Positions 44,683 to 60,762 of a stretch of DNA of 64,000 nt are shown in pieces. This stretch comes from Streptomyces sp. NBC_00490. Lineage in GTDB: Bacteria; Actinomycetota; Actinomycetes; Streptomycetales; Streptomycetaceae. The DNA lies in NCBI RefSeq assembly GCF_036013645.1, contig NZ_CP107869.1:372001-436000 (forward strand), in the 5' to 3' direction. The stretch's first letter is position 1, and every line of letters begins with the position of its first letter. A program made the position numbers and the translations under genes. The notes beneath the pieces were generated by a model. It had not been told where the DNA came from. It worked only from the letters and a program-made list of their open reading frames with translations, and made no database searches.

Positions 44683-44872
44683 TCTTCTTGGGCTCCACGG
44701 CCCCCCTTCCGACCTTGCGTCGTCGGAGTGCCGGGGGTGGCCGTCTCCTCCCTGCCTCCAAAGCTCACGGAAGCCTCACCGGTTCGCCGGATTGGGGCCG
44801 GTAGGGACACCGTCGGGGACCTTCGGCGCCTGAGCGCGGGGCTGGTCAAGAGCGAGAGTGGAGAGGGAAGCG

Positions 44873-44958: not shown

Positions 44959-47616
44959 ATGGCCGGTAAGAACGACGGCAAGCCCACCACTCCCGACAGC
45001 GGGCCCTCCGAAACAGCGATCGCGGTGGACCGGCTGGTCACGAACGGGCTGAAGGCGCTCGCCGACTACGAGTCGCTGACTCAGGAGCAGGTCGACCACA
45101 TCGTCAAGAAGGCGTCGGTCGCCGCGCTGGACCAGCACACCGGGCTGGCGGCGCTCGCCGTCGAGGAGACCGGCCGCGGTGTCTTCGAGGACAAGGCCGC
45201 GAAGAACATGTTCGCCTGCGAGCACGTCACCCACAGCATGGGCAGGATGAAGACCGTCGGAGTCATAGCCCGCGACGACATCGAGGACATCGTCGAGATC
45301 GCGGAGCCGGTCGGCGTGGTCTGCGCGATCACGCCCGTCACCAACCCCACCTCCACCACGATCTTCAAGGCGCTGATGGCACTGAAGACCCGCAACCCGG
45401 TCGTCTTCGCCTTCCACCCCTCCGCCCAGCGCTGCAGCGCGGAGGCGGCTCGCGTCGTCCGCGACGCGGCCATCGCCGCAGGGGCACCGGAGCACTGCGT
45501 GCAGTGGATCGAGACCCCCTCCCTCGAGGCGACCGACACTCTGATGCACCACCCGGGCGTCGCGCTCATCCTCGCCACCGGTGGCAACGCCATGGTCAAG
45601 GCCGCCTACTCCGCGGGAAAGCCCGCCCTCGGCGTCGGCGCCGGCAACGTGCCCGCCTACGTCCACAAGAGCGCCAAGCTGCGCCGGGCCGTCAACGATC
45701 TGGTGCTGTCCAAGTCCTTCGACAACGGCATGATCTGCGCCTCCGAGCAGGCGGTCATCCTCGACTCCGAGATCTACGACGCGGCGCTCGCCGAGTTCCG
45801 CACCCTGCACGCTCATCTGGCGACCGCCGAGGAGAAGGCGAAGCTGGAGGCGTTCCTGTTTCCCGTCGGCCCGGCGGGCGGCGGCTGCGAGCCCAAGGTC
45901 AACGCCGCGGCCGTCGGGCAGAGCCCGGCGTGGATCGCCGAGCAGGCCGGGTTCACCGTGCCTGCCGACACGTCCGTCATTCTGGTGGAGGCCGAACGGG
46001 TCGGCCCGGACGAGCCGTTGACCCGGGAGAAGCTGTGCCCGGTGCTCACCGTGCTCCGCGCGGATTCCGAGGCCCAGGGCTTCGATCTGGCCGCCGACAT
46101 GGTCGCCTTCCACGGTCAGGGCCACAGCTCGGTCATCCACACCGAGGACCGCGAGCTCGCGGAAGCGTACGGCCGTCGCATGAAGACCGTACGGATCATC
46201 GTCAACTCGCCTTCCTCGCAGGGCGCGATCGGCGGTGTCTACAACAGCCTGTTGCCTTCGCTGACGCTGGGCTGTGGATCCTGGGGTAGCACGTCGGTGT
46301 CCAACAACGTCACCGCCGCCCAGTTGCTGAACGTCAAGCGGGTCGGCACCCGCCACAACAACCTCCAGTGGTTCAAGGTGCCGCCGAAGATCTACTTCGA
46401 GCCGCAGGCCATCCGCTACCTGACCTCCATGCCGGACATCCACCGCGTCACGATCGTCACCGACGCGACGATGACCCGCCTCGGCTTCGTCGACCGGGTG
46501 AGCCGCGTCCTGCAATGCCGGCCCGAGCCGGTGACTCTGCAGATCATCGACAACGTCGAACCCGAGCCCAGCATCTCTTCCGTCCAGCGCGGCGCCCGCC
46601 TCATGCGGGACTTCCGCCCGGACACGATCATCGCGCTCGGCGGTGGCTCCCCGATGGACGCCGCGAAGGTGATGTGGCTGCTGTACGAGCACCCGGACGT
46701 CGACTTCGCCGACATGCGGCAGAAGTTCTCCGACATCCGCAAGCGCGCCTTCCGCTTCCCTGTCCTGGGCGAGCGCGCCCGTCTGGTGTGCATTCCCACG
46801 ACATCGGGAACCGGCGCAGAGGTCACCCCGTTCGCCGTCATCTCCGACCCCGCCACCGGTAAGAAGTACCCCCTGGCCGACTACGCCCTCACCCCCAGCG
46901 TGGCCATCGTCGATCCCCTGCTCACCGCCCAACTGCCCCCGGCCCTGGCTGCCGACAGCGGCTTCGACGCCCTCACCCACGCCATCGAGGCATACGTCTC
47001 CGTCTACGCCAACGACTTCACCGACGGCCCCGCCCTGCACGCCGTCCGCCTCATCTTCGACAACCTCGACGCAGCCGTGAACAACCGTGCGGGCAGCCCC
47101 GAGTCCCGGGAGAAGATGCACAACGCCGGCACCATCGCGGGCATGGCCTTCGGCAACGCCTTCCTCGGCATCGTCCATGCCATGTCGCACACCCTTGGTG
47201 CCACCTTCCACATCGCCCACGGCCGCACCAACGCGGTCCTGCTCCCGCACGTCATCCGCTACAACGGCACCGTGCCCACCAAGCTGACCGGCTGGCCCAA
47301 GTACGAGAGCTACCGCGCCCCGGAACGCTTCCAGGACATCGCCCGCACACTCGGCCTGCCCGCCGCCACCCCGGCACAGGGCGTGGAGTCCCTGGCCTGC
47401 GCTGTGGAACGGCTCCGTGACGCCGTGGGCATCGAGCCCTCGTTCCAGGCCCTGGGCGTGGACGAGCAGCACTACCTCACAGCCCTGCCCCAACAGGCCC
47501 TCAACGCCTACGAGGATCAGTGCGCGCCCGCCAACCCGCGCATGCCGATGCTCGACGACATGCAGGAACTGATGCGCACCGCCTACTACGGTCAGGCAGC
47601 GACACCGGCCCGGTAG
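44959..47616 (+). CDS. adhE: Bifunctional acetaldehyde-CoA/alcohol dehydrogenase
   Basis: 885 aa, standard AdhE length; GGAGG upstream. The N-terminal half is a CoA-acylating aldehyde dehydrogenase with PVTNPTSTTIFKALMALKTR, the glycine-rich GVGAGNVPAYV and catalytic Cys260 in NGMICASEQ. The C-terminal half is an iron-dependent alcohol dehydrogenase with ALGGGSPMDAAKVMWLLYEH, PTTSGTGAEVTPFAVI, and metal-binding DALTHAIEAY, HAMSHTLGATFHIAHG. It reduces acetyl-CoA to ethanol with two NADH and so regenerates NAD without oxygen. With the PFL genes this gives a fermentative route, unexpected in a mostly aerobic genus. Confidence 0.96.
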   Translation: MAGKNDGKPTTPDSGPSETAIAVDRLVTNGLKALADYESLTQEQVDHIVKKASVAALDQHTGLAALAVEETGRGVFEDKAAKNMFACEHVTHSMGRMKTVGVIARDDIEDIVEIAEPVGVVCAITPVTNPTSTTIFKALMALKTRNPVVFAFHPSAQRCSAEAARVVRDAAIAAGAPEHCVQWIETPSLEATDTLMHHPGVALILATGGNAMVKAAYSAGKPALGVGAGNVPAYVHKSAKLRRAVNDLVLSKSFDNGMICASEQAVILDSEIYDAALAEFRTLHAHLATAEEKAKLEAFLFPVGPAGGGCEPKVNAAAVGQSPAWIAEQAGFTVPADTSVILVEAERVGPDEPLTREKLCPVLTVLRADSEAQGFDLAADMVAFHGQGHSSVIHTEDRELAEAYGRRMKTVRIIVNSPSSQGAIGGVYNSLLPSLTLGCGSWGSTSVSNNVTAAQLLNVKRVGTRHNNLQWFKVPPKIYFEPQAIRYLTSMPDIHRVTIVTDATMTRLGFVDRVSRVLQCRPEPVTLQIIDNVEPEPSISSVQRGARLMRDFRPDTIIALGGGSPMDAAKVMWLLYEHPDVDFADMRQKFSDIRKRAFRFPVLGERARLVCIPTTSGTGAEVTPFAVISDPATGKKYPLADYALTPSVAIVDPLLTAQLPPALAADSGFDALTHAIEAYVSVYANDFTDGPALHAVRLIFDNLDAAVNNRAGSPESREKMHNAGTIAGMAFGNAFLGIVHAMSHTLGATFHIAHGRTNAVLLPHVIRYNGTVPTKLTGWPKYESYRAPERFQDIARTLGLPAATPAQGVESLACAVERLRDAVGIEPSFQALGVDEQHYLTALPQQALNAYEDQCAPANPRMPMLDDMQELMRTAYYGQAATPAR

Positions 47617-47631
47617 ACCGCTGCTCCGCGA

Positions 47632-47676
47632 ATGCGGCACCGGGTCGCCTCATGAGGAGGCGACCCGGTGCCGCAT
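47632..47676. terminator. Strong terminator hairpin after adhE
   Basis: Perfect 20-bp inverted repeat (47632-47651 with 47657-47676) around the loop ATGAG, 15 bp past the adhE stop. Confidence 0.9.
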
Positions 47677-48163
47677 GTCGTGACGCGCTCAGAAGGCCGG
47701 AAGCGGTGCAGAGAAGTCCAGGGCAGTGCTCTGGGACCGTTCCGGGCGAGGGTGACCGTGCTGCCGAGTTCCTGAGGCCGGGAGTGAAGGTTGACCGGGC
47801 TGCTGCAACGGCTGGTGGCCGGGCGATGCCACATCCGTTGTCGCTCCTGTGGAGACGCCCGTCGTGCCGGTGGCTTCGGCGCTGATGCCGACCGCCGTGG
47901 CGCGGGCGTGCCTGGCGGTGTCGGAAAGAGCCTCGCGACCAGGTGCTCGGCGTACTCATGCGGAACCGCGGTGTCGAGCAGGCCGGTCATGCCCGTCCGC
48001 GTCTGTTCCCGGCTGCTCTCCGCGCTCCGAGGCATGGGGCCATGAGTCCCTACCGACAGACGGACGGTCCCTGGGGTTGGACCCGGCGGTCCGTCCCTCC
48101 GCGCGGCCCCGTGTACCGCGTTGCCCGCGCGGCTCCCGCGCGACGAGGGCCGCTTTCGCATGG
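47677..48163. other. Gene-free gap
   Basis: About 490 bp. Minus-strand fragments such as VPHEYAEHLVARLF followed by DTARHARATAVGIS in a shifted frame hint at a decayed gene, but I cannot name a family. Confidence 0.4.
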
Positions 48164-48197
48164 TGCGGGGGTAGGGCCACTCGGCCCTACCCCCGCA
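48164..48197. promoter_or_regulatory. Extended palindrome with a DosR-like core
   Basis: 15-bp perfect arms with a 4-bp centre; the core is GGGCCACTCGGCCC (GGGNC-N4-GNCCC). It ends 25 bp before the PNPOx-like start codon, so it probably overlaps the promoter or leader. A terminator function is the alternative. Confidence 0.65.
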
Positions 48198-48222
48198 CGA
48201 CGACCGCGGGGACGATGGACCG

Positions 48223-48645
48223 ATGTTCCAGAACGACGCCGTTCGCGGACTCGACCGACAGGAGTGCCTGCGCCTGCTCGCCAAGGTGCCGGTCGGCCGC
48301 GTGGTCTACACCCGGCAGGCCCTGCCCGCGGTCCTCCCCATCAACTTCTCCCTGGACACGGACTCCTCCGTCCTGCTGTCGACCTCGCAGGACTCGGACC
48401 TCGTACGCGCCGTCGACGGCGTCGTGGTCGCCTTCGAGGCGGATGAGTTCGACGCGGCGTCCCGGTCCGGCTGGAGTGTGGTCGTCACCGGCCGGGCCAC
48501 CGTGGTGACCGATCCCGCCGAGCACGAGCGGCTGTCGCAATCCGACCCCACGTCCTGGATGCCTGTGCAGGACGCGGTGTTCGTACGGATCGAGTCGGAG
48601 ATGGTCACCGGACGCGCCCTGAAGGGCACGTCCGGTATGGAGTGA
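48223..48645 (+). CDS. PNPOx-like split-barrel protein (copy 2)
   Basis: 140 aa. LDRQECLRLLAKVPVGRVVY and AVLPINFSLDTDSSVLLSTS start the barrel; WSVVVTGRATVVTDPAEHER and VFVRIESEMVTGRAL finish it. Family members bind flavin or F420 and several belong to the mycobacterial DosR regulon. The DosR-like palindrome directly upstream supports hypoxic control here. Related to the protein at 33196. Confidence 0.9.
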   Translation: MFQNDAVRGLDRQECLRLLAKVPVGRVVYTRQALPAVLPINFSLDTDSSVLLSTSQDSDLVRAVDGVVVAFEADEFDAASRSGWSVVVTGRATVVTDPAEHERLSQSDPTSWMPVQDAVFVRIESEMVTGRALKGTSGME

Positions 48646-48666
48646 GGCACGCCGGCCGGGCTCCGG

Positions 48667-49065
48667 ATGGGTCTGTGCCACGTGGCCCGCGTCGTGATCG
48701 CCTGCTGCGTGTGCATGTGGGCGGAGGCCGTGATCAGACAGACCGAGCCCACGCGAGCCATCCGCGCGAAGGTCGAGATCGATTCCCGCAACGAGGACAG
48801 GAGTCCCGACGAAGGGGAGATGGCGGCCACCTTGCGTGCCCGATGGGCCGAGGAACACACCCGGGTGGCGGAGGAGCGGGGAGAGCCAACGCCGCCGCAG
48901 AACCAGATGCTCAAGCTCGCGCGCGATGCCTTGGAGCATCCCGATAAGGCCCGCCTGGAAGAGGGCGGGGCCTTCTCTGCGTCTGCCCCGGGGTTCAAGG
49001 GCAAGGCACTGTGCGCTCCCAGGTGTTGTCCTTCGACCGCGTACAAGGAGCTGCTGAGGGAATGA
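48667..49065 (+). CDS. Hypothetical protein
   Basis: 132 aa if started at ATG 48667; the N-terminal 35 residues look poorly conserved, and a GTG near 48730 is another candidate. The core is charged and helical (MAATLRARWAEEHTRVAEER, MLKLARDALEHPDKARLEEG) with good third-position GC. No family recognised. It follows the PNPOx-like gene by 21 bp and may be co-transcribed. Confidence 0.45.
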   Translation: MGLCHVARVVIACCVCMWAEAVIRQTEPTRAIRAKVEIDSRNEDRSPDEGEMAATLRARWAEEHTRVAEERGEPTPPQNQMLKLARDALEHPDKARLEEGGAFSASAPGFKGKALCAPRCCPSTAYKELLRE

Positions 49066-49838
49066 CATCTGTCCGGTGACGGTCCCAGAAGGGTGTGACC
49101 GCCTGCCCGTCGCGGCGGCGTGGGTCCGCGCGGAGCGCTCCTGAACCTGCGCAAGGAGGCCCCGCTACACCTCTGCGTGCTGGCCGTTTGGCTGTGTCAG
49201 GTTCTGCGGAGTCGTTTCACGATGACTTTGCGAGTTGTTGTGGCGAGGTCGCTGTGCTCAATGTCTGCGAGTTCTGATGTCACTCGCGGGAGCGGGACTG
49301 TGGGGCAGAGATGGCGGTCCGGGCCTCTGCCGGCCCCGGGGGCGGTATCCAAAGACCGTGCTGCTCTTCTCCACTGCGCTTCCTGCCGAGTTGCCAGTGC
49401 TGGGAGAGGGGCGGCGCAACAGGCCGGTCAGGGCCAGGGTGTGCCCTGTCGGCCCTCACGATGAGAGGGCGGAAGACGTATCCATGAAGAGAACCCCAGC
49501 GGTGCTCCGCGGGAGCCCGGGACGCGCTCTGAAGCACCCGACCCGTTGGACGCCCTGGACACGGCCCAGGGCGGCAGAGCCTGCTTTGGGGAGGCAGGTA
49601 TCTGCGTGTCCCTGGTCTGGTGCTCGCAGCCCCTGACCAGGGACATTCCGGCGCCCGACATCCCCCGACCGATGCAGGGTGCACGCGGGTGTTCGTGGCG
49701 TGCGGGCCAGACCGGGGCGGAGCCTGTGGGGAGTAGGCTGAAATCGTCGAGAGTATTGCGCCGGTGCCGTGCCGGTGTTGTTCTCGGTGAACATCGATGC
49801 CGGGCCGGTCAGACCGCGCCCGGAGGCGGGTTCACGTC
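49066..49838. other. Gene-free gap
   Basis: About 770 bp with short open frames on both strands and no recognisable motif or start signal. Probably degraded accessory DNA next to the pseudogene cluster that follows. Confidence 0.45.
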
Positions 49839-50343
49839 ATGGAACCGACTGCCGATCATGTTGCACTCACCGCGGTAGGCCCCTCTCCACCGCTGCCGGC
49901 CCGGCTTTCGCTGGCGCCGTACGCAGCCGTCCCGGACGGATTCGACGGAGCCTGGTGGCCGTACTCCCGCAATCTCGCCGCCGAACTTCCCGCCCTGGTG
50001 GAAATCGATGGACGGCGTGGGCATCATCACGAGAGTCATTCTGGGGATCGGGCTGTGGCCCGACATCCCGCACCGGATCCCCGTAGGCGGGCACTTGGTG
50101 ACCGCTGGCTGGTTCGTGTCCGGTCACGAACAGCACGAGATCACGCTCTGTTCCTATCGTGACGGGTCTCGCACGCTGCTCATTATTCCTCCCACGACGG
50201 AGCCCGACACCGCGGCCTGGCTGATGAACACGCCCCTACCGGTCGACGGCAGCAGCACCGCCACCGAACTCCTGGCCATGGCAACGGCCCGCTTCGACGC
50301 ACCCCCCGTTGACGTTCCGCAGTGGATCGGACGGCCGATGTGA
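49839..50343 (+). pseudogene. DUF5994 family protein, frameshifted
   Basis: The first frame reads MEPTADHVALTAVGPSPPLP, ARLSLAPYAAVPDGFDGAWW and SRNLAAELPALVE, and the second MDGVGIITRVILGIGLWPDI, then CSYRDGSRTLLIIPPTT and a helical end. Together they make one DUF5994 protein, broken by a one-base change near 50005. Function unknown. Confidence 0.75.
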
Positions 50344-50387
50344 GGCGTCCTGTCTGAGCACGACCTGGACGTGCCAATCCGCCTTGT

Positions 50388-50525
50388 TCAGCCTGCTTCG
50401 GCCCGTTCGGCCTGGGCCTTGGTGTGGGCGGGGCGGCAGGACTCGGTGCCGGACTGGATGGTGGCGCCATTGAAGGTGAGCCGGTCGACGATGCCGCGCA
50501 GAGCCTGGGGCCGGTGAACGTCTTT
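50388..50525 (-). pseudogene. IstB-like (IS21) ATP-binding protein C-terminal fragment
   Basis: The minus strand ends ALRGIVDRLTFNGATIQSGT, ESCRPAHTKAQAERAEAG, resembling the C-terminal segment of IstB-type helper proteins. Nothing of the P-loop region remains. It abuts an IS5 fragment. Confidence 0.55.
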
Positions 50526-50592
50526 GCACTCCTGACGAAATGATCTTCGGGGTGGTTGGATCACTCCGGGACCGTTGATCCGGGGTCGCGGG

Positions 50593-50712
50593 GTGGCTCG
50601 GCCGAAGCCGTGGAAAGTCGACGACGAGTTATGGGCGGTGGTCGAGCCACTGCTGCCGAAGGCGGAGCGGCGAGCTCGCCAACCCGGGCGGAACTGGAGC
50701 AGCCTGCTGTGA
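50593..50712 (+). pseudogene. IS5-family transposase N-terminal fragment
   Basis: Reads VARPKPWKVDDELWAVVEPL then LPKAERRARQPGRN and stops after 39 residues. This is the typical start of IS5-group transposases; the catalytic part is absent. Confidence 0.75.
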
Positions 50713-50879
50713 CCGGCCGGCACGCGGCACAGGAATGACGCATGGCGCTCCTCGCATGTGGGTGCTGAGCCTCTGCTCCTCCTCGACGGTCCCGGCGAGA
50801 GCGGACAGGCTTCGCCCGGGGCAGGGCGTGCCCGCCTGCCGCACGGGCCAACGAGCCGGGGCTTCGGTCCCCCGCCTTC

Positions 50880-50893
50880 GGGACGGTCGGCCC
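50880..50893. promoter_or_regulatory. DosR/OsdR-like box
   Basis: GGGACGGTCGGCCC fits GGGNC-N4-GNCCC, 206 bp upstream of the CBS-BON gene. The rest of 50713-51098 holds no gene. Confidence 0.55.
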
Positions 50894-51098
50894 ATGTGTG
50901 GCGACTCGCCGTACGGGACGCTGGAGAAGCATGACGGCCTGGTTCCCCGAGCGGCCGGAAGGGACGGCAGAGCGCGTGTGCTCCGGCCCGATGGCATCAC
51001 AGACGCCTCGTCCCACAGGACTCACGCAGGAGGGCGTCCCGGCACAGCATCCGTCGCGCACCTCTGGCGGACGGTGGAGGCGGAAGGGAGTTGGCGTG

Positions 51099-51821
51099 AT
51101 GACCCGCACAGTCGGCGAGGTGATGACCAGCGAGGTCGTCGAAGCGCACCGGGACACGTCGTTCAAGGACGTGGCACGGCTACTGGACCAACACCGCATC
51201 AGCGGTCTGCCCGTGGTGGACCACGACGACAAGGTCCTGGGAGTGATCTCCGAGACCGACCTGATGCGCCGGCACGCGGCCCGGTCCTCCCGTGGCCGCG
51301 TGCGGTGGTTCCGGAAGTCCGCGCTGCGCCGCTCCGCCCCTCACCTGACCACGATGGCCCCGGCCACGACCGCCGGAGAGCTGATGTCGACGCCCGCCGT
51401 CACCGTGCACCCCGAACAGGGCGTCGCGGACGCCGCGCGTGTCATGGAACGCCACCATGTCGACCGGCTCCCTGTCGTGGACGAGGAGGACCGCCTGATC
51501 GGCATCGCCACCCGACGGGACCTGCTGCGGATCTTCCTGCGGACGGACGAGGAGATCCGCCGGGACGTGACCGACGACGTCCTGACGCGCGCCATGTCTC
51601 TGCCACCTCACGCCGTGACGGTCTCGGTTCGGGACGGCATGGTCACGCTGGAGGGGCAACTGGAACGGCAGAGCGACATCTTCCTCACCACCCAGCTGAC
51701 GTGGCGGGTGGACGGGGTGGTCGGGGTCGTGAACAGCCTGACGTTCCACGTCGACGAGACTCCTCCGCCCGAGCCGCACCCCTCGGGCGGAATCGCGCGC
51801 CCCTGGCTGCTCAACGACTGA
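51099..51821 (+). CDS. CBS-CBS-BON domain protein
   Basis: 240 aa from ATG 51099 (GTG 51096 is adjacent; GGGAG upstream). CBS 1: VGEVMTSEVVEAHRDTSFKD to LGVISETDLM. CBS 2: AGELMSTPAVTVHPEQGVAD to IGIATRRDLLRIFLR. Then a BON domain with VTVSVRDGMVTLEGQLERQS. CBS pairs bind adenine nucleotides and BON domains contact membranes or phospholipid. A close relative lies at 61353. Such proteins are common in actinobacterial dormancy islands. Confidence 0.92.
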   Translation: MTRTVGEVMTSEVVEAHRDTSFKDVARLLDQHRISGLPVVDHDDKVLGVISETDLMRRHAARSSRGRVRWFRKSALRRSAPHLTTMAPATTAGELMSTPAVTVHPEQGVADAARVMERHHVDRLPVVDEEDRLIGIATRRDLLRIFLRTDEEIRRDVTDDVLTRAMSLPPHAVTVSVRDGMVTLEGQLERQSDIFLTTQLTWRVDGVVGVVNSLTFHVDETPPPEPHPSGGIARPWLLND

Positions 51822-51849
51822 CCGCAGAGCGAAGCCAGTCGTTCCGCCC

Positions 51850-51863
51850 GGGACCGATGGCCC
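51850..51863. promoter_or_regulatory. DosR/OsdR-like box
   Basis: GGGACCGATGGCCC, 107 bp upstream of the DUF4389 gene. Fits GGGNC-N4-GNCCC. Confidence 0.55.
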
Positions 51864-51969
51864 TCCCCTCGACCCCGGGCGGCCCTCCTCACTCCTCCCG
51901 TCGCAGGCCACGCTTGTCATGGGCCCAGGCTCCGCGACTGTCGCTCTGGACCCGGAGGAGTTGATCGCC

Positions 51970-52635
51970 ATGACAACCCTTGCCGGACTACCGGACCGCC
52001 CGGTCCGCGTCAACGCGGTCCTCGACGCACCGCTGTCCCGCTGGCTCTGGCTGGTGAAATGGATCCTCGTCATCCCCCACTACGTCGTGCTGTTCTTCCT
52101 CTGGATCGCCTTCACGGTCGTGAGCATGATCGCGTTCTTCGCCATCCTGTTCACCGAGCACTACCCACGCCCCCTGTTCGACTTCAACCTCGGAGTACTG
52201 CGCTGGAGCTGGCGGGTCGCCTACTACTCCTACGGCGCCCTGGGCACCGACCGCTACCCGCCCTTCAGCCTCGGCGAAGAACCCCACTACCCGGCCCGGC
52301 TGGACATCGCCTACCCCGAGCATCTCTCCCGCGGCCTGGTCCTGGTGAAATGGTGGCTGCTGGCCATACCCCACTACGTCATCGTCGCCTTCTTCCTCGG
52401 CGGCTGGCACCTCGGATGGTGGGACGGCGGACTCGTCGCCGTACTCGCCCTGATCGCCGCCATCACCCTGGCCTTCACCGAGAAATACCCCAAGGGCCTG
52501 TTCGACCTGATCCTCGGCCTCAACCGCTGGGTACTGCGGGTCGCCACCTACGCCGCCCTCATGACGGACACCTATCCCCCCTTCCGCCTCGACATGGGCG
52601 GCACCGAACCGAGCGAACCGGAGGTGCTGCCGTGA
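51970..52635 (+). CDS. DUF4389 membrane protein
   Basis: 221 aa; GGAGGAG 9 nt before the ATG. Two internal repeats, each with a paired hydrophobic segment: WLWLVKWILVIPHYVVLFFL and LVLVKWWLLAIPHYVIVAFF, each followed by FTE(H/K)YPxxLFDxxLGxxRW and YPPF. About four membrane helices. Function unknown. Coupled to the next gene by GTGA overlap. Confidence 0.88.
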   Translation: MTTLAGLPDRPVRVNAVLDAPLSRWLWLVKWILVIPHYVVLFFLWIAFTVVSMIAFFAILFTEHYPRPLFDFNLGVLRWSWRVAYYSYGALGTDRYPPFSLGEEPHYPARLDIAYPEHLSRGLVLVKWWLLAIPHYVIVAFFLGGWHLGWWDGGLVAVLALIAAITLAFTEKYPKGLFDLILGLNRWVLRVATYAALMTDTYPPFRLDMGGTEPSEPEVLP

Positions 52636-53012
52636 TCGCCTTTCTGGTGGCGGCGTTCCTGATCGTGCACGGGCTACTGCACCTGGGTGTCTGGACAGCG
52701 CCACAGCCGCCGGACAAGCCGTCCCCGTTCGACCCCGGACACTCGTGGGCTCTGGCAGCCGCTCATGTCTCCCCCGCGCCGGCCAGGGCCACGGCCCTGG
52801 CGCTTGCCTGGTACACGGCCGTCGTCTACACCGTCGCCGGTGCGGGGACGCTGGCGGGCAGCGTGTGGTGGCCTACGGCAGCCGTTGTCGGGGCAGCGAC
52901 GGGTCTCGTCCTCAAGGCGATCTGGTTCGATCCGTGGCTCAGTGTCGGCGCGCTGCTGGACGTGGGCGTCATCGTGGCGGTGGCCTCCACCTGGCCCGCC
53001 TCCGCCTACTGA
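52632..53012 (+). CDS. Small membrane protein of unknown function
   Basis: 126 aa from GTG 52632 overlapping the DUF4389 stop. About four hydrophobic segments (AFLVAAFLIVHGLLHLGVWT, ALAWYTAVVYTVAGAGTLAG, PTAAVVGAATGLVLKAIWFD, LLDVGVIVAVASTW). No family recognised; probably works with the DUF4389 protein. Confidence 0.8.
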   Translation: MIAFLVAAFLIVHGLLHLGVWTAPQPPDKPSPFDPGHSWALAAAHVSPAPARATALALAWYTAVVYTVAGAGTLAGSVWWPTAAVVGAATGLVLKAIWFDPWLSVGALLDVGVIVAVASTWPASAY

Positions 53013-53041
53013 GCGCGAGCGCCCGACCCGGAAATCCCAAG

Positions 53042-53068
53042 CCCCGACCGGATCACCGCCGGTCGGGG
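53042..53068. terminator. Hairpin between convergent genes
   Basis: CCCCGACCGG and CCGGTCGGGG form a perfect 10-bp stem with a 7-nt loop, between the small membrane protein gene and the convergent pflA. Confidence 0.8.
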
Positions 53069-53113
53069 TCTCTGGTTCGCTGTGCCCTGATCACGTTGCG
53101 CCGGGCCGCCTTG

Positions 53114-53860
53114 TCACAGGGCCCGCAGCCCGTGTTCCCGGAACTGCTCGCGTACCCGCTCCGTCAGGTGCGGGTCCGGCGTGGGAGTGTCACGCAGGGG
53201 GAAGGTGATCCCCAGGGCGTCGTACTTGGGGGCGCCGAGTTTGTGGAACGGCAGGACGTCCACCCGGTCGACGTTGCCCAGCCCGGCGAGGAACGCGCCG
53301 AGGCCGTCGACCGCTGCCATATCGTCGGTCCAGCCGGGCACGAGGACGTAGCGGATCCACACCGGGACGCCGAGCCGGTCCAGGCGGGTAGCGAAGTTGA
53401 GGGTCGGGGAGAGGTCCCCTCCGGTCAGCCTGCGGTAGGTCCGGACGTCGAACGACTTGATGTCGAGCAGGACCAGGTCGGTGTCGGCGAGCAGTTCGTC
53501 GCCGGCGCGGGCGCCGAGGAAACCGGACGTGTCGAGGGCCGTGTGCAGGCCGAGCTCCTTGCAGCGGCGGAAGATCCCCGCCGTGAACGCGGGCTGCAGC
53601 AGGGCCTCCCCGCCGGTGAGCGTCACTCCCCCGCCGGCGGTCGTGATGAAGGGCCGGTACTTCTCGATCTCGGCCATCACTTCGTCGACGGTGGTCCGCT
53701 TGCCGTCGCGCATGTGCCAGGTGTCAGGGTTGGCGCAGTACAGGCACCGCAGCGGACAGCCGCTGAGGAACAGCACGAACCGGGTCCCGGGACCGTCCAC
53801 CCCCGTGGACAGGTCCCAGGAGTGGATCCGGCCCGTCACCGGTTCGACCGTGGTCTTCAT
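53114..53860 (-). CDS. pflA: Pyruvate formate-lyase activating enzyme
   Basis: 248-aa radical SAM enzyme. The [4Fe-4S] motif is C35-PLR-C39-LY-C42, followed by the SAM-binding [14 protein letters not shown] and the conserved LDTSGFLG and LLDIKSFD. It makes the glycyl radical on PflB. Its ATG overlaps the pflB stop (ATGA), so enzyme and activator are made together. Confidence 0.96.
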
Positions 53861-56118
53861 AGCGATCCGTGGAAGGTACGGCTGATCACGTCGAGCTGCT
53901 GCTCGCGGGTCAGGCGGACAAAGTTGACGGCGTATCCGGAGACCCGGATCGTCAGCTCCGGGTACTTCTGGGGGTGTTGCATGGCGTCCTCGAGCGTCGC
54001 CCGGTCCAGGACGTTGACGTTCATGTGGAAGCCGCCGGAGGCCGTGTACGCGTCCAGGATGCCGACCAGGTGGCCCGCTCGCTCGGCCGGATCGTGTCCC
54101 AGTCCCTCGGGCGTGATGGTCGTGGTGAGCGAGATGCCGTCCCGGGCCTGCTCGTAGGGGAGCTTGGCCACCGAGAGGGCCGAGGCGGCTACGCCGTGCA
54201 GGTCGCGGCCGTTCATCGGGTTGGCCCCGGGGGCGAAAGGCTGACCGGCACGGCGTCCGTCGGGGGTGTTGCCGGTGTGCTTGCCGTAGACCACATTGGA
54301 GGTGATGGTCAGCACCGACTGCGTGTGCTCGGCGTCGCGGTACGTGGGGTGCTTGCGCACCTTGGCCATGAACGACCGGACCAGGTCGGCGGCGATCGAG
54401 TCCGCGCGGTCGTCGTTGTTCCCGTACGCCGGGTAGTCGCCCTCGATCTCGTAGTCGACGGCCAGGCCGGTCGCGTCGCGGATCACCTTCACCCGCGCAT
54501 ACTTGACCGCGGACAGGCTGTCGGCGGCGACCGACAGACCCGCGATGCCGCAGGCCATGAAGCGGTGCACGGGGTGGTCGTGCAGCGCCATCTCGATGCG
54601 CTCGTAGGCGTACTTGTCGTGCATGTAGTGGATGACGTTGAGCGTGTTGACGTACGTGGCCGCTAGCCAGTCGAGCATGTGGTCGTACGCCTTCGACAGC
54701 TGCTCGTAGTCCAGGTGGTCGCGGGTCAGCGCGGGGGCCTCGGGTGCGATCTGCTCGCCGGTCATCTCGTCCCGGCCGCCGTTGATCGCGTACAGCAGAG
54801 CCTTGGCAAGGTTCACGCGTGCGCCGAAGAACTGCATCTGCCGGCCCACCGCCATCGCCGAGACACAGCAGGCGATCGCCGTGTCGTCACCGGTGCGCGG
54901 GCGCATCAGGTCGTCGGACTCGTACTGGATCGCGCTCGTGTCGATCGAGACCTGCGCGCAGAACTCCTTGAATCCGGACGGCAGGCGGGACGACCACAGG
55001 ACCGTCAGGTTGGGCTCGGGCGCCGGGCCGAGGTTGTACAGGGTCTGCAGGAAGCGGAAGGAGGTGCGGGTGACCAGTGTGCGGCCGTCCGCGCCCATAC
55101 CGCCGATGGACTCCGTCACCCAGGTCGGGTCGCCGGAGAACAGTGCGTCGTACTCGGGTGTGCGCAGGAAACGGACGATCCGCAGCTTGATCACGAAGTC
55201 GTCGATCAGCTCCTGGGCACGTGTCTCGTCGAGGATCCCCTCGTCCAGGTCGCGCTGGAGATAGACGTCCAGGAAGGTGGAGGTACGGCCGAGCGACATC
55301 GCGGCGCCGTTTTGCTCCTTCACCGCCGCCAGGAAGCCCAGATAGAGCCACTGCACGGCTTCGTGCGCGGTGACGGCGGGGCGGGTGACGTCGCAGCCGT
55401 AGGAGGCCGCCATCTGGGCCAGCTCGCCCAACGCCCTTTCCTGCTCGGCCAGTTCCTCGCGGTCCCGGATGACGTCCGGGCTGGAGGGCCGCGCGTCCAG
55501 CAGAGCGCGTTCGGCACGCTTGGCCTCGATGAGCCGGTCCGTGCCGTACAGCGCGACGCGCCGGTAGTCGCCGATGATCCGGCCACGGCCGTACGCGTCC
55601 GGCAGTCCGGTGATGATGCCGGCCTTGCGGGCGGCGCGCATCTCGGGGGTGTAGGCGTCGAATACGCCGTCGTTGTGGGTCTTGCGGTATGTGCTGAAGA
55701 CGCGCGTGACGAAGGGGTCGGCCTCGTAGCCGTAGGCCTTCAGTCCGTTCTCGACCATCCGCAGTCCGCCGTTGGGCATGATCGCCCGCCTCAGCGGGGC
55801 GTCGGTCTGCAGGCCGACGATCAGTTCGCGGTCACGGTCGATGAAGCCCGGCCGGTGCGAGGTGATGGTGGACGGGTTGCCCGGGTCGACGTCGAGGATG
55901 CCCAGGCGCCGTTCCTCGGGGAACAGCCGCGCGATCTTGTCCCAGACGGTGAGCGTGCGCTCGGTCGGCCCGGACAGGAAAGCGGAATCGCCTTCGTAGG
56001 GCGTGTAGTTGGACTGGATGAAGTCGCGTACGTCGATGTGGCCCCGCCAACGCGTGCCGGCGAAGCCTCGCCACGCCTCGGTCGTCGGCTGGGGTCCAGC
56101 TGTCACCGTTGCCGTCAT
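53857..56118 (-). CDS. pflB: Pyruvate formate-lyase
   Basis: 753 aa, close to the E. coli length. ATG 56118 follows GGGAGAGAG. The catalytic pair Cys417-Cys418 lies in [12 protein letters not shown] and the radical Gly728 in RVSGYAVNF; the activator-recognised C-terminal region is complete. The substrate-binding segments (RRIAGIP-like region, [37 protein letters not shown]) identify a true PFL rather than a diol dehydratase. It cleaves pyruvate with CoA to acetyl-CoA and formate. The radical form is destroyed by oxygen, so the enzyme implies function under oxygen limitation. Confidence 0.96.
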
Positions 56119-56239
56119 CGCCGCTCTCTCCCTCGTTGCGCACGTTAACTGTCTGCACTGTCGATACTCGTGGCTCGCGCCGCCTGCGGGCAGGGCCTGT
56201 CGGCGCACCCCGGGCGCGCCAACGGTCCCTTCCTCGGAG

Positions 56240-56253
56240 GGGCCGTTGGGCCT
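56240..56253. promoter_or_regulatory. DosR/OsdR-like box, one mismatch
   Basis: GGGCCGTTGGGCCT, 122 bp upstream of pflB; the last base departs from GGGNC-N4-GNCCC. Confidence 0.4.
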
Positions 56254-56282
56254 GGTCAGGCCGGGTCTCGCCGGGGAACACA

Positions 56283-56322
56283 GACCGGGGCGCCCCCGCA
56301 GGCAAGCGGGGACGCCCCGGTC
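56283..56322. terminator. Hairpin downstream of doxX
   Basis: GACCGGGGCG-c-CCCCGC pairs with GCGGGG-a-CGCCCCGGTC (one mismatch, 6-nt loop), 18 bp past the DoxX-like stop and upstream of pflB. Confidence 0.8.
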
Positions 56323-56339
56323 CGACGGGCATACAGCCC

Positions 56340-56963
56340 TCAGAGCAGCCAGCGGTTGCGGCTCACGAAGGGCAGCCGTGCCCAGGCCTTGCCCAGGCCC
56401 CAGGCGGCGCCGGCGCCCGCTGCCGCGAGGGCGATCAGGACGACGGCGTAGACGAGGTGGTAGTCGGCGAAGGGGTTGGTCGACATGCTCGCCGACCCGT
56501 CGGACAGGTGCTTGGCCGGCGGCCACTCGGCGATCCACATCAGCGCCATCATGAGCGTGCCCGCGACCGCGGCGAGCCGCAGGCCGATGCCGGCGATCAG
56601 GGCGAGGCCGATGGCGAGCAGACCGAGCATGAACAGCCAGTTGGCCCAGGTGGCGCCGGCCCAGTCATGGAAGGTGGACTCCATCGGTCCGGCGGACACG
56701 CCGCTGAGGAAGCCCATGGTGGGCGAGCCGCCGTCGATCCAGCCCTTGCCGGAAGGGGTCGCGTAGCCGAAGCCGAATGTCTTGTCCAGGAAGGCCCACA
56801 GGAAGACGAACCCCGTCAGGACCCGCAGTCCGGCGAACGCGTACGCACGGGTCGCCGTCGCGGCGGCGGTCGTCTCGGCGTCGGAGGCGGGAGCCGTCCC
56901 GGTCCTGCGCAGGGACGGGAAACGGAATCCCAGGTGCCGGGTGGGGTGGTCGTGCACTGCCAT
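56340..56963 (-). CDS. DoxX family membrane protein
   Basis: 207 aa from ATG 56963, spaced 8-9 nt after AAGGGA; ATG 56972 abuts that site. Four membrane helices: [60 protein letters not shown] and [20 protein letters not shown]. DoxX proteins are linked to thiol/oxidative stress and quinone-type redox in actinobacteria. Two DosR-like boxes lie upstream, the nearer (57081) 118 bp away. Confidence 0.9.
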
Positions 56964-57080
56964 GATGCTCATCCCTTTCGAGGGGGTGCGACGCGCAGAA
57001 TGCGATGGACGACTCTTGTTGCACCTTCAATGTCCCGTCCCGGCGACGCCCTTCGGAGGGGCTGCATGGCCCGGGACTGC

Positions 57081-57094
57081 GGGCCGAACGGCCC
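57081..57094. promoter_or_regulatory. DosR/OsdR-like box, perfect palindrome
   Basis: GGGCCGAACGGCCC, 118 bp upstream of the DoxX gene. Confidence 0.7.
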
Positions 57095-57119
57095 TCCGTC
57101 CCGGGCCCGTTGGCTTCCG

Positions 57120-57368
57120 TCATCCGTCCCAGGCCCAGTCGGCGACCTCGGGCAGGTCGGTACGATGACGGGGGTGGCCATGGCACGCGGAGCACCGGTT
57201 TGTCGGGGTGAGCAGACCGTCGTACCCAAAGTCGCTCATGCCGTGCAACAACGCTGCGGCCGGCAACTCCAGCGTGGGCACATCACCGGTGGCCGCGAGC
57301 ACCACGTCCGGCTCCCTCTCACCGCTCTCGGTCCCGACCCACTCCCAGATCAGGGCCGACCGGCCCAT
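57120..57368 (-). pseudogene. Phosphoketolase C-terminal remnant
   Basis: The 82-residue frame reads IWEWVGTESGEREPDVVLAA, TGDVPTLELPAAALLHGMSD, FGYDGLLTPTNR and ACHGHP, with further changed residues at the end. These match the end of xylulose-5-phosphate/fructose-6-phosphate phosphoketolase (DVVLAxxGDVPTLE, HGMSDxxFDxLFT, YHGYP), but the stretch between PTLE and HGMSD is deleted and the first 650 or so residues are missing. Not functional as a phosphoketolase. Confidence 0.75.
57353..57366. promoter_or_regulatory. DosR/OsdR-like box
   Basis: GGGCCGACCGGCCC fits GGGNC-N4-GNCCC. It overlaps the 5' end of the phosphoketolase remnant and may once have stood upstream of another gene, or may now serve the DoxX unit. 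Confidence 0.5.
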
Positions 57369-57400
57369 CCGCCTCGCCCCCGACGCTCGTCTTGAGGACT

Positions 57401-58231
57401 TCAGGCCTTCGGCACCAGCACCACTGGGCAGTGGGAGTGGTGCAACAGGACGTGCGCGACCGGGCCGAGCTGAGGACCGAGCCGGCCTGCTCGCCGACGC
57501 GCGCCGATGACAACGACGCCGGCCTGGCGCGTACGCGTCAGCAGGGCGTGGGACGGGCTGGCGCTTACCGTCCGGCTGTCGACGCCGACCTCGGGATACT
57601 CTTCGCGCAGGCGGGCGATGCCGAACCGCGGAACGGCTTCTTCCGCCAGGTCGTCCCGGGCCTGGCGCTCCTGGCCCGAACTCGTCGCGCTCACCGGTGA
57701 AGGCAGTTCGGGCGTGGTGCGCCGGTGCGTCGGGGAATGCAGGACGTGCAGCTGGACCCCGCGCCGTGCCGCCTCCTGGAAGGCATAGACGGCTGCGGCC
57801 TCGTCGGCGTCGCTCTCCAGACCGAGCAGCACCTCGCGCCCGTCGTCGCAGGGGTGATCCCCGCGGACGACCAGCAGTGGCCCGTGCGCCTCCGCGGCCA
57901 GGCGCCAGCTCACCGAACCGGCCAGCAGGCCGCTCACCCCGCCGAACCCCCGGGTGCCCACGACCGTGAGGACCGCGTGCCCGCTCTCTCCCGACAGCGC
58001 CCGCACGGCCCCGCCCTCCACTGCCCTCGTCTCCACCGGCAGACCGGGGTGGCGCTCGTGGACCCGCGAGGCGGCCGACGCCAGAACGGGCCCCGCCTCG
58101 TCGCGGTCGGCCACGGCGTACACGATGCGCAACGCGGCGCCGCGACGCACCGCTTCCTCCACGGCCCAGTCCAGCGCCCGTACGGCGATCAGTGAACCGT
58201 CCACTCCAACGACCACATGACGGTCAGGCAT
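57401..58231 (-). CDS. Universal stress protein, two tandem USP domains
   Basis: 276 aa. Domain 1: HVVVGVDGSLIAVRALDWAV to GTRGFGGVSGLLAGSVSWRL. Domain 2: EVLLGLESDADEAAAVYAFQ to GARRRAGRLGPQLGPVAHVL and HHSHCPVVLVPKA. Slightly shorter than the other USPs here. Start ATG 58231; a perfect DosR-like box is 180 bp upstream. Confidence 0.93.
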   Translation of the reverse strand: MPDRHVVVGVDGSLIAVRALDWAVEEAVRRGAALRIVYAVADRDEAGPVLASAASRVHERHPGLPVETRAVEGGAVRALSGESGHAVLTVVGTRGFGGVSGLLAGSVSWRLAAEAHGPLLVVRGDHPCDDGREVLLGLESDADEAAAVYAFQEAARRGVQLHVLHSPTHRRTTPELPSPVSATSSGQERQARDDLAEEAVPRFGIARLREEYPEVGVDSRTVSASPSHALLTRTRQAGVVVIGARRRAGRLGPQLGPVAHVLLHHSHCPVVLVPKA

Positions 58232-58410
58232 GGCTCTGACTCCCTACTGTTCCGTGCGCCGGTCACTCCCGTGAAGTGCCGTCGGCAGCGAATGCGCAGC
58301 TGACGGCACGTGGGTACCAGGGGCGCCTCCACAAGCGATGCTCACCGCCCGCGGACGCCGCAAGGAGAGGCCGACAGAACCTGCCGACACGCCGTACGTC
58401 CCGAACCAGC

Positions 58411-58424
58411 GGGCCGTACGGCCC
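58411..58424. promoter_or_regulatory. DosR/OsdR-like box, perfect palindrome
   Basis: GGGCCGTACGGCCC, 180 bp upstream of the leftward USP gene. Confidence 0.7.
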
Positions 58425-58499
58425 TGGGCCCGGCCAAGAAGCCGGGCGGCCACTCATCCGGTGAGATCCACCCGGTCCAACAGAACGCGCCCGGTCTGC

Positions 58500-59501
58500 T
58501 CAGCGCTCAGCCGGCACGCCATCGAGCACCATGCTCGGGACGCGTCGCGGACTCTCGACGCCTTCGGGCCCGTATCCGAGACGGATGAGCATCTGAACAT
58601 GTCCGGTCCGACCGGGCGTCGGGCTCAGTGAACTCCGCAGGTCCGGCCACTCCAGCCCCTGGTGCAGCAGCGAGGCGCACACACAATGCGCTGTGGCGAG
58701 GAGCCACACGTGCTGGAGAGCCTGCCCAGCCCGCAGCCAGTCGGCGCGGCGGTCGTGCTCGGTGATGAGCACAGCGATGACGGGTGCCGCCTCAAACGGT
58801 CGGGCGAGCAGCCGCTCGGAGTGCCGTTGCGCGGTGAAGTCCCGCAAGGGAAGGTGTTCGCGAGCGTCCTGGAGGCCGAGTACCGCCCGCGGCAGGCCCA
58901 CGTCGGGCCTTGGTTGCAGGTCTTGGTGCACCCAGCGGTTGCTCTCGTCGGCGCGGTCGGCATCGACGCGGTTGCGGCGCTCGGCCTCAGCGGTCAGGCG
59001 GAGCAGCCGCCCCGTCTCGACGGGGCCGGGGAACCAGAGCCGAGCGCCCTCCGCGCGGGCCGCTTCACCGAGTTCGTTCCGTAGACACGGTGACAACGGC
59101 CGCCCTGAGAACGGGAGGCGGCTGCTGCGCCTGCGCCAGATCGCTTCATACAGATCGGCCCGGTGCTCCGTGGGGCGCCGGGCAACGGCCCCTGCCAAGC
59201 GGACGATTGCGAGCAGACCTGGATCCTCCGGGGAGGGCAACAGACGCCTCACCGGCGACCATCCGGCGTGCGCGATCGCGACCCGGAGATTCAGGAGGGC
59301 CGCTCCCACCGAGAGGTGCAGAGCGCGACCTGCCGGGTCCGCGTGGCGCAGGCCGCGTTCCGGGGCGGCGCGCACCTGGAACGTGGCCGACAGGGGATCC
59401 AGGCGGAAGGACCATGGCTGGGTGTTGTGGATCGAGGGCGCGGCGACAGCGGCCCACACGCAGGTCTCCGGATTCACGGCATCCAGGGTTGTGTTGTGCA
59501 C
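58500..59501 (-). CDS. Acg-like nitroreductase-family protein
   Basis: 333 aa from GTG 59501, with GAGGAGG 5 nt upstream. Family features: AAVAAPSIHNTQPWSFRLDP near the N-terminus, LHLSVGAALLNLRVAIAHAG, RRRSSRLPFSGRPLSP, and HVQMLIRLGYGP near the end. This is the two-repeat, lidless nitroreductase group of M. tuberculosis Acg (Rv2032), itself a DosR regulon gene; such proteins may store FMN rather than catalyse. A near-match DosR-like box lies 84 bp upstream. Confidence 0.88.
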   Translation of the reverse strand: MHNTTLDAVNPETCVWAAVAAPSIHNTQPWSFRLDPLSATFQVRAAPERGLRHADPAGRALHLSVGAALLNLRVAIAHAGWSPVRRLLPSPEDPGLLAIVRLAGAVARRPTEHRADLYEAIWRRRSSRLPFSGRPLSPCLRNELGEAARAEGARLWFPGPVETGRLLRLTAEAERRNRVDADRADESNRWVHQDLQPRPDVGLPRAVLGLQDAREHLPLRDFTAQRHSERLLARPFEAAPVIAVLITEHDRRADWLRAGQALQHVWLLATAHCVCASLLHQGLEWPDLRSSLSPTPGRTGHVQMLIRLGYGPEGVESPRRVPSMVLDGVPAER

Positions 59502-59584
59502 GATGCCCTCCTCACACGTCGGCGTGGGACAGGTAGTGCAGTGCATTCCTACGAGCGTGGGTGCTTGGCCTTCACCCCGGTGAG

Positions 59585-59598
59585 AGGCCGATGGTCCC
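59585..59598. promoter_or_regulatory. DosR/OsdR-like box, one mismatch
   Basis: AGGCCGATGGTCCC differs from GGGNC-N4-GNCCC only at the first base; 84 bp upstream of the Acg-like gene. Confidence 0.4.
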
Positions 59599-59664
59599 GT
59601 CGGCGGGCCGGACGGGCACACCTCACGGGTGTGAGCGGCTCCCGCGGCGGTGCGCCGGCATCGC

Positions 59665-60588
59665 TCAGCCGACGGCCAGGTCAGGGCGTACAAGAGTGCC
59701 CGATCTCCCGTGAACGATCTCGTACGCCGCGTCCAGGGCGCCGATGGCCGCGAGCGCTCCGGTGCGCTCGACGAACCTGGCGGCTGCCTCCGCCTTGGGA
59801 CCCATGGACCCGACTGCGTAGTCTCCGCGGCGCAGCTCGTCGGGGGTCGCGTCGAGGACGGGCTGCGGGTCGTGGGTGCCGTAGCCGGCGTAGACGCACG
59901 GGACATCGGTGAGGATGAGCAGAAAGTCGGCCTTGAGGTCCTCGGCGAGCAGAGCCGCCGTGAGGTCCTTGTCGACGACCGCCTCGACGCCGGTCAGTGC
60001 ACCGGTGTCCTGGTCGGCGGTGACCGGTACACCTCCACCGCCGGCGCAGATGACCAGGACACCGCTGCCCAGTAGTCCGTGGATGGTCTCGGTCTCCAGG
60101 ATCCGTTCGGGCGATGGTGAGGGGACCACGCGGCGCCATCCCGTGCCGTCCTCGGCGATGTGCCAACCATGTGTGCGAGCGAGGGACTCGGCGATCTTGC
60201 GGGGGTACACCTGGCCGACGAACTTCGTGGGTGTGCCGAAGGCCGGATCGTCGGCCCGTACACGAGTGTGCGTGACCAGCGCGGCGATCGGACGCCCCGG
60301 CAAGGCGTCGTATATCGCGCGGACCAGCAGCGAGCCGATCATCCCCTGTGTCTGGGCGCCGAGAAGGTCCAGCGGGTACGGAGCACTGAGCGCCGGATCT
60401 GCGGCACTCTCCATAGCGAGCAGGCCGATCTGGGGTCCGTTGCCGTGGGTGATGACAATCTCGTGTTCGAGGGCGAGACCGGCGATCGCGGTGGTCACCC
60501 TGTCGATGTTCGTCTCCTGCACGTCCGCGTCAGGGCGTTCGCCCCGGTGCAGCAGGGCATTGCCCCCGAGGGCGATGACGATACGCAT
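59665..60588 (-). CDS. arcC: Carbamate kinase
   Basis: 307 aa; GGAGG upstream of ATG 60588. Starts MRIVIALGGNALL, with HGNGPQIGLLAMESAADP, YPLDLLGAQTQGMIG, ICAGGGGVPV, EAVVDKDLTAALLAEDLKAD and GSMGPKAEAAARFVE, the full amino-acid-kinase set of ArcC. It makes ATP from carbamoyl phosphate and ADP, the last step of anaerobic arginine breakdown. No arginine deiminase or ornithine transcarbamylase lies in the window, so the substrate source is unknown. Confidence 0.95.
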   Translation of the reverse strand: MRIVIALGGNALLHRGERPDADVQETNIDRVTTAIAGLALEHEIVITHGNGPQIGLLAMESAADPALSAPYPLDLLGAQTQGMIGSLLVRAIYDALPGRPIAALVTHTRVRADDPAFGTPTKFVGQVYPRKIAESLARTHGWHIAEDGTGWRRVVPSPSPERILETETIHGLLGSGVLVICAGGGGVPVTADQDTGALTGVEAVVDKDLTAALLAEDLKADFLLILTDVPCVYAGYGTHDPQPVLDATPDELRRGDYAVGSMGPKAEAAARFVERTGALAAIGALDAAYEIVHGRSGTLVRPDLAVG

Positions 60589-60762
60589 GGCTTTGGTCCT
60601 CCAGGATCCTCGGACGTCGAGAGATCCGCACTCCGAGGGTGAGTGACGCGGCCACGGTGCGCCCCGCCCACGGAGGAGTCTCCCGACGTCATCGAACATC
60701 GAGGATCGCTCCGGCACAGGGTGCCGAAGGCCCCCGGACGCGCTGCCGGCCGGCCCGGACAT

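Follow-up and report, generated by a model that had tools for sequence, protein, structure and literature searches.

An intact pyruvate formate-lyase and AdhE gene set in an OsdKR-type hypoxia island of Streptomyces sp. NBC_00490

Streptomycetes are textbook obligate aerobes. We analysed a 64,000-nucleotide stretch of Streptomyces sp. NBC_00490 (C1:372001-436000 of a 10.57-Mb contig, hereafter the window) that encodes a set of fermentation enzymes including a pyruvate formate-lyase (PFL), its activase PflA and the bifunctional dehydrogenase AdhE. The window belongs to an island of about 130 kb of the OsdKR (DosR) type that continues rightward, and its genes are probably a share of a fermentative survival programme controlled by OsdKR within this hypoxia island. 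The integrity of the genes, their catalytic residues, the conservation of operators and neighbourhoods and the co-occurrence of the enzymes across genomes are all established here. An earlier reading of the sequence alone (the original prediction) had proposed an anaerobic survival set, rare in the genus. The intact set, the oxygen-stress island and the DosR-type boxes are borne out and the rarity of PFL is not, so that the proposal gains strength as to regulation and extent but needs correcting as to rarity. The picture that results is a variant of the Dos/Osd hypoxia regulon extended by a PFL-AdhE branch; Streptomyces has, besides, another PFL lineage, of Rex type.

The enzymes of the set are encoded as follows.

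40054..41076, minus strand, type I glyceraldehyde-3-phosphate dehydrogenase (GAPDH; TIGR01534 417 bits against a cut-off of 367; Cys158 in SNASCTTNC)
42468..43487, plus strand, zinc alcohol dehydrogenase (ADH), AdhP-like (PF08240 and PF00107; NF006940 338 bits, slightly below the cut-off of 344)
44959..47616, plus strand, AdhE, bifunctional acetaldehyde-CoA/alcohol dehydrogenase (NF010378 1339 bits against 951)
53114..53860, minus strand, PflA, PFL-activating radical S-adenosylmethionine enzyme (TIGR02493 303 bits against 231.75)
53857..56118, minus strand, PFL (formate C-acetyltransferase), type A (TIGR01255 1148 bits against 994)
59665..60588, minus strand, carbamate kinase ArcC (NF009008 400 bits against 361; start Met at 60588)

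The PFL is intact by family model and catalytic residues: the adjacent Cys417-Cys418, Trp333 and the radical Gly728 in the C-terminal RVSGYA motif are all present, and the E. coli PflB structure 1h16 can be aligned with it over residues 12-751. Another glycyl radical enzyme in its place was ruled out, rival models scoring far below their cut-offs. The dedicated activase, whose gene shares 4 bases with the stop end of pfl, bears its CX3CX2C motif as CPLRCLYC at residue 35. A preference for pyruvate over 2-ketobutyrate (the TdcE-like substrate) and the formation of the radical are predicted. Both halves of AdhE, a fused acylating aldehyde dehydrogenase and iron-type alcohol dehydrogenase, align with structure 6tqh. 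ArcC is complete; four carbamate kinase models matched it, of which it passed one, the three others, TIGR00746 included (323 against 358), staying below cut-off. The claims made beforehand for the residues of PFL and PflA, for two active halves of AdhE and for a complete ArcC were all correct. GAPDH and the zinc ADH, which had been counted in the same set, are genuine, but they lie just left of the interval 44959-60588 that the set was thought to occupy.

Candidate OsdR operators accompany these genes. The published consensus of the OsdR operator is given as AGGGCCGATCGGCCCT in the main text of PMC5069765. Its exact core, GGGCCGNNCGGCCC, occurs at 29 sites genome-wide, 19 of them within C1:389872-521965 and 5 in the window (binomial p ~1e-29 for the clustering, in a region delimited after the sites had been seen). 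With one mismatch the core was found 704 times a strand genome-wide, not above the control of 746, and because of this only strong OsdR sites are meaningful. A low-threshold scan was likewise uninformative in this GC-rich DNA, with 26 window sites above a score of 8, where 20 Markov shuffles gave 21.4 on average. The boxes considered in the window are listed below.

41166..41181, OsdR/DosR box AGGGCCGTTCGGCCCT between GAPDH and a universal stress protein (USP) gene, at -105 of GAPDH (exact core, score ~21, 21.3)
42325..42340, OsdR-like box at -143 of ADH (score 14.4-14.5)
44668..44683, weak OsdR-like site at -291 of adhE, which may be due to chance (score 8.6-8.7)
48173..48188, OsdR-like box upstream of a pyridoxamine 5'-phosphate oxidase-like (PNPOx-like) gene (score 13.9)
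56239..56254, OsdR box of degenerate sequence, in the usual type A position at -136 of pfl (score 10.6)
57080..57095, OsdR box upstream of a DoxX-like gene (exact core, score 18.2)
57352..57367, OsdR box (exact core, score 16.3)
58410..58425, OsdR box upstream of a USP gene (exact core, score 16.7)

Palindromic boxes are thus found upstream of the targets, as in an OsdR/DosR regulon, and the predicted co-location with USPs and DosR-like boxes is confirmed; binding of the regulator in this strain is a prediction. A candidate for this regulator lies to the right of the window, where five stretches spanning C1:436001-536000 were covered by scanning 30 selected gene-call proteins and then twice 10 pieces.

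C1:438917-441648, GAF-GAF-HisKA_3 kinase and LuxR-type regulator (OsdKR-like pair, by domains and GAF homology)

The first GAF domain of the kinase matches DevS GAF structures (2y8h, E 2e-45) and, most closely, 2vzw (E 1e-50), which we take to be DosT. From this homology we infer heme sensing by the OsdK-like GAF; the regulator is a putative OsdR, with a predicted DNA binding in this strain. The right flank also encodes PPDK, a phosphoketolase, a flavodoxin-domain protein, the maturation proteins HypF, HypC, HypD and HypE and four subunits of a [NiFe] hydrogenase, arranged B, G, D, A, together with a second GAPDH (91%) and a second DoxX (86%). The hydrogenase matched the sulfhydrogenase B, G, D and A models, all below their equivalog cut-offs; its large subunit, the sole PF00374 locus found in the genome, carries the Ni-binding motifs RVCGIC and DPCISC (of the patterns RxCGIC and DPCxxC), and we presume the enzyme to be group 3b-type. 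An OsdR box scoring 12.7-18.9 lies at -80 to -102 of hydB in 8/8 loci, namely our own and 7 relatives, chosen from the nearest ones in the 58 other genomes that have a large-subunit relative.

The closest known system is the OsdKR regulon of S. coelicolor and S. lividans (~SCO0198-SCO0219), in which osdRK adjoin genes for PPDK, USP, ADH, nitroreductase and PNPOx according to the portions consulted of PMC5069765 and Table 2 of PMC6302529. Gene neighbours and operator are alike in the two. In contrast, the window strain has an intact PFL with its activase, AdhE, ArcC and a [NiFe] hydrogenase in the same island, the comparison, SCO0203/SCO0204 included, being one of gene content. In S. lividans, the same Table 2 lists a putative PFL beside osdR that climbs from 0 to 74 transcripts per million (TPM) with the OsdR-correlated group; the activase next to it is listed as an N-terminal fragment, and both rise with OsdR (PMC6302529). 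This was the one account of PFL in a Streptomyces OsdR setting that turned up in a literature search of incomplete coverage. Neither "pyruvate formate" nor "hydrogenase" occurs in PMC5069765, the paper on OsdR, as far as its main text goes.

The induction, fluxes and products of the module can be proposed as follows. Upon a drop in oxygen, OsdR would receive its phosphate from the heme-GAF kinase OsdK, and OsdR~P would bind the palindromic boxes and turn on pflB-pflA, adhE, GAPDH, ADH, the USPs and Acg, as well as PPDK and the group-3b-type hydrogenase right of the window. PflA would then place the glycyl radical on PFL, which would split pyruvate into acetyl-CoA and formate with no NADH produced. 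Part of the acetyl-CoA would be reduced to ethanol by AdhE, re-oxidising the NADH from GAPDH, and the remainder could yield acetate and ATP via AckA, which the genome encodes. Further reductant might be discharged as H2 by the hydrogenase. ArcC would contribute ATP only with a supply of carbamoyl phosphate; a clustered arginine deiminase pathway (arcA with arcC) was not found, two arginine deiminase relatives lying far from the window with 480 and 473 bits against a cut-off of 489, and arcB was not sought. Such a module would serve survival, not growth.

We then asked how widespread the module is. In the genome searches, the candidates scored in each genome were limited to a few (3 for PFL and AdhE), and the counts that follow ignore the kinship of species. 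TIGR01255 matches were present in 113 of 295 Streptomyces genomes, above cut-off in 104, and with the window PFL as query a near-full-length PFL was found in 102. This last figure includes one gene split over two frames (G224) and one with an internal stop (G248), without which it is 100, neither of the two genomes having AdhE above cut-off; two truncated copies, though above cut-off (G013 and G264), were not counted as full. In a phylum sample of 396 genomes, some of them Streptomyces, PFL matches occurred in 69 and passed the cut-off in 30. PFL is therefore common in Streptomyces, and the claim that the genus rarely carries it must be rejected. Divided by identity to the window PFL, the enzymes fall into type A (83-100%, 61 genomes) and type B (71-75%, 44 genomes), with both in 3 genomes; close relatives of the window PFL are thus present in about one fifth of the genomes surveyed.

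AdhE follows PFL closely. It was above cut-off in 73 of the 295 genomes, that is, in 71 of the 102 PFL genomes versus 2 of the 193 others (Fisher p 1e-40), and both of these latter carry partial or split PFL matches. On the chromosome, adhE lies within 15 kb of pfl at 28/64 type A and 6/45 type B loci. In-frame stops had been flagged in some AdhE matches; the aligned protein was free of stops at 5/5 loci checked, including the flagged L235, L236 and L237, and what had been flagged is probably just the regular stop codon of the gene. Relatives of the large hydrogenase subunit were found in 59 genomes, in one by a short match, and are distributed over 27/61 type A genomes, 5/41 with type B only and 27/193 with neither. 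The strain itself has much of the module twice, the other copy lying far off on its chromosome (C1:7989001-8009000, L078) and made up of a cyclic-nucleotide-binding protein, ArcC, Acg, PNPOx, USP, phosphoketolase, DoxX, a PFL 91% identical to that of the window, PflA, AdhE and CBS-BON; the two copies are as diverged as those of different species, and the second was perhaps acquired separately. Another genome (G254) has two equal-scoring PFL copies, at C1:202644 and 11335933, each about 0.2 Mb from a chromosome end and perhaps inside terminal inverted repeats.

The two types of PFL differ in their surroundings and in their operators. Both were compared on the loci that had been fetched rather than on every PFL locus. 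For the neighbourhoods, 75 loci were reduced to 50 from Streptomyces in which a full PFL is flanked by 6 kb or more on each side; loci from other genera, loci without a full PFL and short loci were dropped. At least three island-type partners lay within 9.5 kb of pfl at 30/32 type A loci versus 1/18 type B loci, and 17/18 type B loci had none: type A pfl sits amid universal stress, CBS-BON and OsdR-like genes, and type B pfl is mostly alone. A DoxX-like gene is a repeated neighbour (12/32 type A loci), and in 18 type A pfl loci there is an OsdR relative with 70% identity or more. For the promoters, the 350 bp upstream of pfl were taken, giving 53 distinct type A and 41 type B sequences. OsdR boxes scoring at least 9 were present in 45/53 type A (5.7% in shuffles) versus 8/41 type B promoters (4.2%), and boxes of at least 11 in 33/53 (2.0%) versus 6/41 (0.7%; Fisher p 3e-6). 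Moreover, 29 of the 45 type A boxes of at least 9 fall at -121 to -140 of pfl. Among the promoters of adhE genes with at least 80% identity, the window's included, 12/18 bear a box of at least 11.

A different operator was found with type B. The Rex site TTGTGAANNNNTTCACAA, with at most 2 mismatches, occurs in 21/41 type B pfl promoters, perfect in 19 of these 21, as compared with 0/820 shuffles of type B promoters; it was also seen in 11/88 promoters outside the two sets. Both type B adhE promoters examined (2/2) have perfect sites. In the type A pfl promoters, the window's included, neither Rex-like nor FNR-like sites were found at this stringency (0/53 each), and control of either kind is rejected for this type. 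The same Rex consensus was tested by mobility shift assay and footprinting in S. avermitilis, as the parts consulted of PMC5355995 describe. Type B PFL looks Rex-controlled. The terms "pyruvate formate" and "alcohol dehydrogenase" are both absent from the main text of that paper, which also gives pflBA and adhE of S. aureus as Rex targets (PMC5355995). The PFL-AdhE fermentation of E. coli and S. aureus employs the same enzymes as the window at the family level, but the type A promoters of Streptomyces bear OsdR-like sites instead of Rex- or FNR-like ones. Two loci stand out as possible natural cases of operator change: L062 (G036), the sole type B case with OsdR-type surroundings, which has an OsdR box of 16.1 at -93, and L058 (G019), which combines a perfect Rex site with an OsdR box of 14.5.

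Several observations weigh against an OsdKR-controlled fermentative programme. The best OsdR-like site of the window adhE, 8.7 at -291, is not a good box, the pfl box is degenerate (10.6), and 8/13 of the ADH promoters compared score below 11; conversely, a minority of type B pfl promoters (the 6/41 at 11 or more) also have an OsdR box. Only 28 of the 64 type A pfl loci, short contigs included, have adhE within 15 kb. No formate channel of the FocA family was found in the genome. The strain's own hypD is split over two reading frames (L074:1977-3084, C1:457977-459084) and is in one frame in 7/7 relatives, so that either a sequencing error or a recent loss may be at hand; because of this break the hydrogenase may not mature, the maturation set comprising HypF, HypC and HypE beside the broken hypD (hypA and hypB were not sought). 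Finally, 11 of the 113 PFL-bearing genomes have only partial copies, which may in part reflect contig ends, and the S. lividans activase is listed as a fragment; the module is therefore dispensable.

PFL and AdhE might then be passengers of the OsdR island, a decaying relic transcribed under stress without useful fermentation and lost species by species, as the partial copies, the S. lividans fragment, the broken hypD, the patchy presence (102/295 genomes) and the lack of reported anaerobic growth in S. coelicolor would all suggest. We nevertheless regard this as unlikely, given the intact catalytic residues of the window PFL, the further pfl-pflA-adhE-arcC copy elsewhere in the genome, whose PFL is 91% identical, the operator position conserved between species and the near confinement of AdhE to PFL-bearing genomes; the patchy distribution is compatible with an optional survival trait, and also with decay. 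Alternatively, PFL might mainly supply formate for one-carbon units (purines, initiator Met-tRNA) in hypoxia, AdhE and ADH handling aldehydes or alcohols. The want of a FocA exporter agrees with this, as do the 36/64 type A loci without adhE within 15 kb and the 31/102 PFL genomes without AdhE above cut-off. However, AdhE accompanies PFL in the 71 other genomes, a formate dehydrogenase alpha subunit found above cut-off in the genome could use the formate instead, as an intracellular sink, and the PPDK, phosphoketolase and hydrogenase of the island suggest energy and redox balance, all of which makes a one-carbon role quite improbable. The oxygen-regulated survival programme would also have been called into question, according to the original prediction, by a set that is common and constitutive in the genus: common it is (102/295), whereas constitutive expression is not indicated, considering the conserved OsdR boxes of type A and the rise of the putative S. 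lividans PFL from 0 to 74 TPM.

The origin of the type A PFL was addressed with a tree of 76 sequences selected from 159, without enterobacteria, built by a quick method with SH-aLRT support only and midpoint rooting. Type A forms a clade with 100% support beside Actinomadura, Acrocarpospora and Sphaerisporangium, within an actinobacterial group, and a sequence from the same genus labelled "other" (L117) groups inside it; type B and the Bacillota PFLs are placed apart. A recent gain from Firmicutes is thus rejected. The broader idea of a recent horizontal gain from Firmicutes or enterobacteria, which has nothing but the patchy distribution in its favour, seems to us most improbable in view of this tree and of the GC content of 44001-62000, which at 0.68-0.72 is like that of the flanks. 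Outside the genus, OsdR relatives occur at the pfl locus in Sphaerisporangium (L149) and in a Frankiaceae metagenome-assembled genome (L168). For HydA relatives this is the case in Actinomadura (L146) and Virgisporangium (L153). Other actinobacterial pfl loci compared, e.g. in Kineosporia (L169), Actinoplanes (L161) and Cellulomonas (L155), have no such partners.

A parallel is found in mycobacteria, where we take the hydrogenase Hyh of M. smegmatis to be Hyd3. This obligate aerobe has a hypoxia-induced alpha/beta/gamma/delta [NiFe] hydrogenase (MSMEG_3927-3931) beside a DosR-type cluster, and Hyh is counted in the dos regulon in the parts consulted of PMC2799521 and PMC8125079. The window island likewise pairs a [NiFe] hydrogenase with DosR-type genes. 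It presumably differs from the M. smegmatis Dos regulon by the additional PFL-PflA and AdhE, a formate/ethanol branch. Streptomycetes are described as unable to grow anaerobically despite many genes of anaerobic metabolism, the "anaerobic paradox" discussed in PMC5069765, on which the present module bears: an intact and probably oxygen-regulated PFL-AdhE-hydrogenase module offers anoxic mycelium a concrete way of balancing energy and redox, and S. lividans is suggested to be a poor stand-in for such a module. With the paired promoters, OsdR versus Rex, one can ask whether fermentation in Streptomyces is gated by oxygen or by NADH. We speculate, with more doubt than conviction, that Streptomyces possess two separately wired fermentation systems, a stand-alone PFL/AdhE of Rex type that senses NADH and one of OsdR type, sensing oxygen through heme, in a dormancy island, the latter sometimes with an H2-evolving hydrogenase. 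Many species, while surviving anoxia, could then be conditional fermenters of the mixed-acid and hydrogen kind, which the work on S. lividans may have overlooked since the activase is a fragment there.

The neighbours of the fermentation genes comprise 3 USPs, 2 CBS-BON proteins, an Acg/Rv3131 oxidoreductase, PNPOx-like, DoxX-like and DUF4389 proteins and a cyclic-nucleotide-domain protein. Those delimited in the window are the following.

41252..42325, plus strand, USP with two Usp domains (PF00582)
48223..48645, plus strand, PNPOx-like protein (PF12900)
50898..51821, plus strand, CBS-CBS-BON protein, the real start probably further in (PF00571, PF04972)
51919..52635, plus strand, DUF4389 protein (PF14333)
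56340..56972, minus strand, DoxX-like protein (PF07681, E 9e-4, below its cut-off)
57401..58231, minus strand, USP (PF00582)
58500..59546, minus strand, Acg/Rv3131-type flavin mononucleotide oxidoreductase (NF047509 291 bits against 199; start set at Met121 of the open reading frame)
60643..61311, plus strand, cyclic-nucleotide-binding-domain protein (PF00027 only, no helix-turn-helix domain reported)
61179..62057, plus strand, CBS-CBS-BON protein (PF00571, PF04972)

At 37601-39982 of the window, three PAS domains are fused to a SpoIIE phosphatase and a HATPase, with FixL- and DosP-like PAS matches far below cut-off. In the right flank, two genes (L074:7615-10554 and L076:1679-4408) each encode a GNAT domain fused to the body of an ADP-forming acyl-CoA synthetase, a fusion that might acetylate proteins or else catalyse a step of acetate metabolism that yields ATP.

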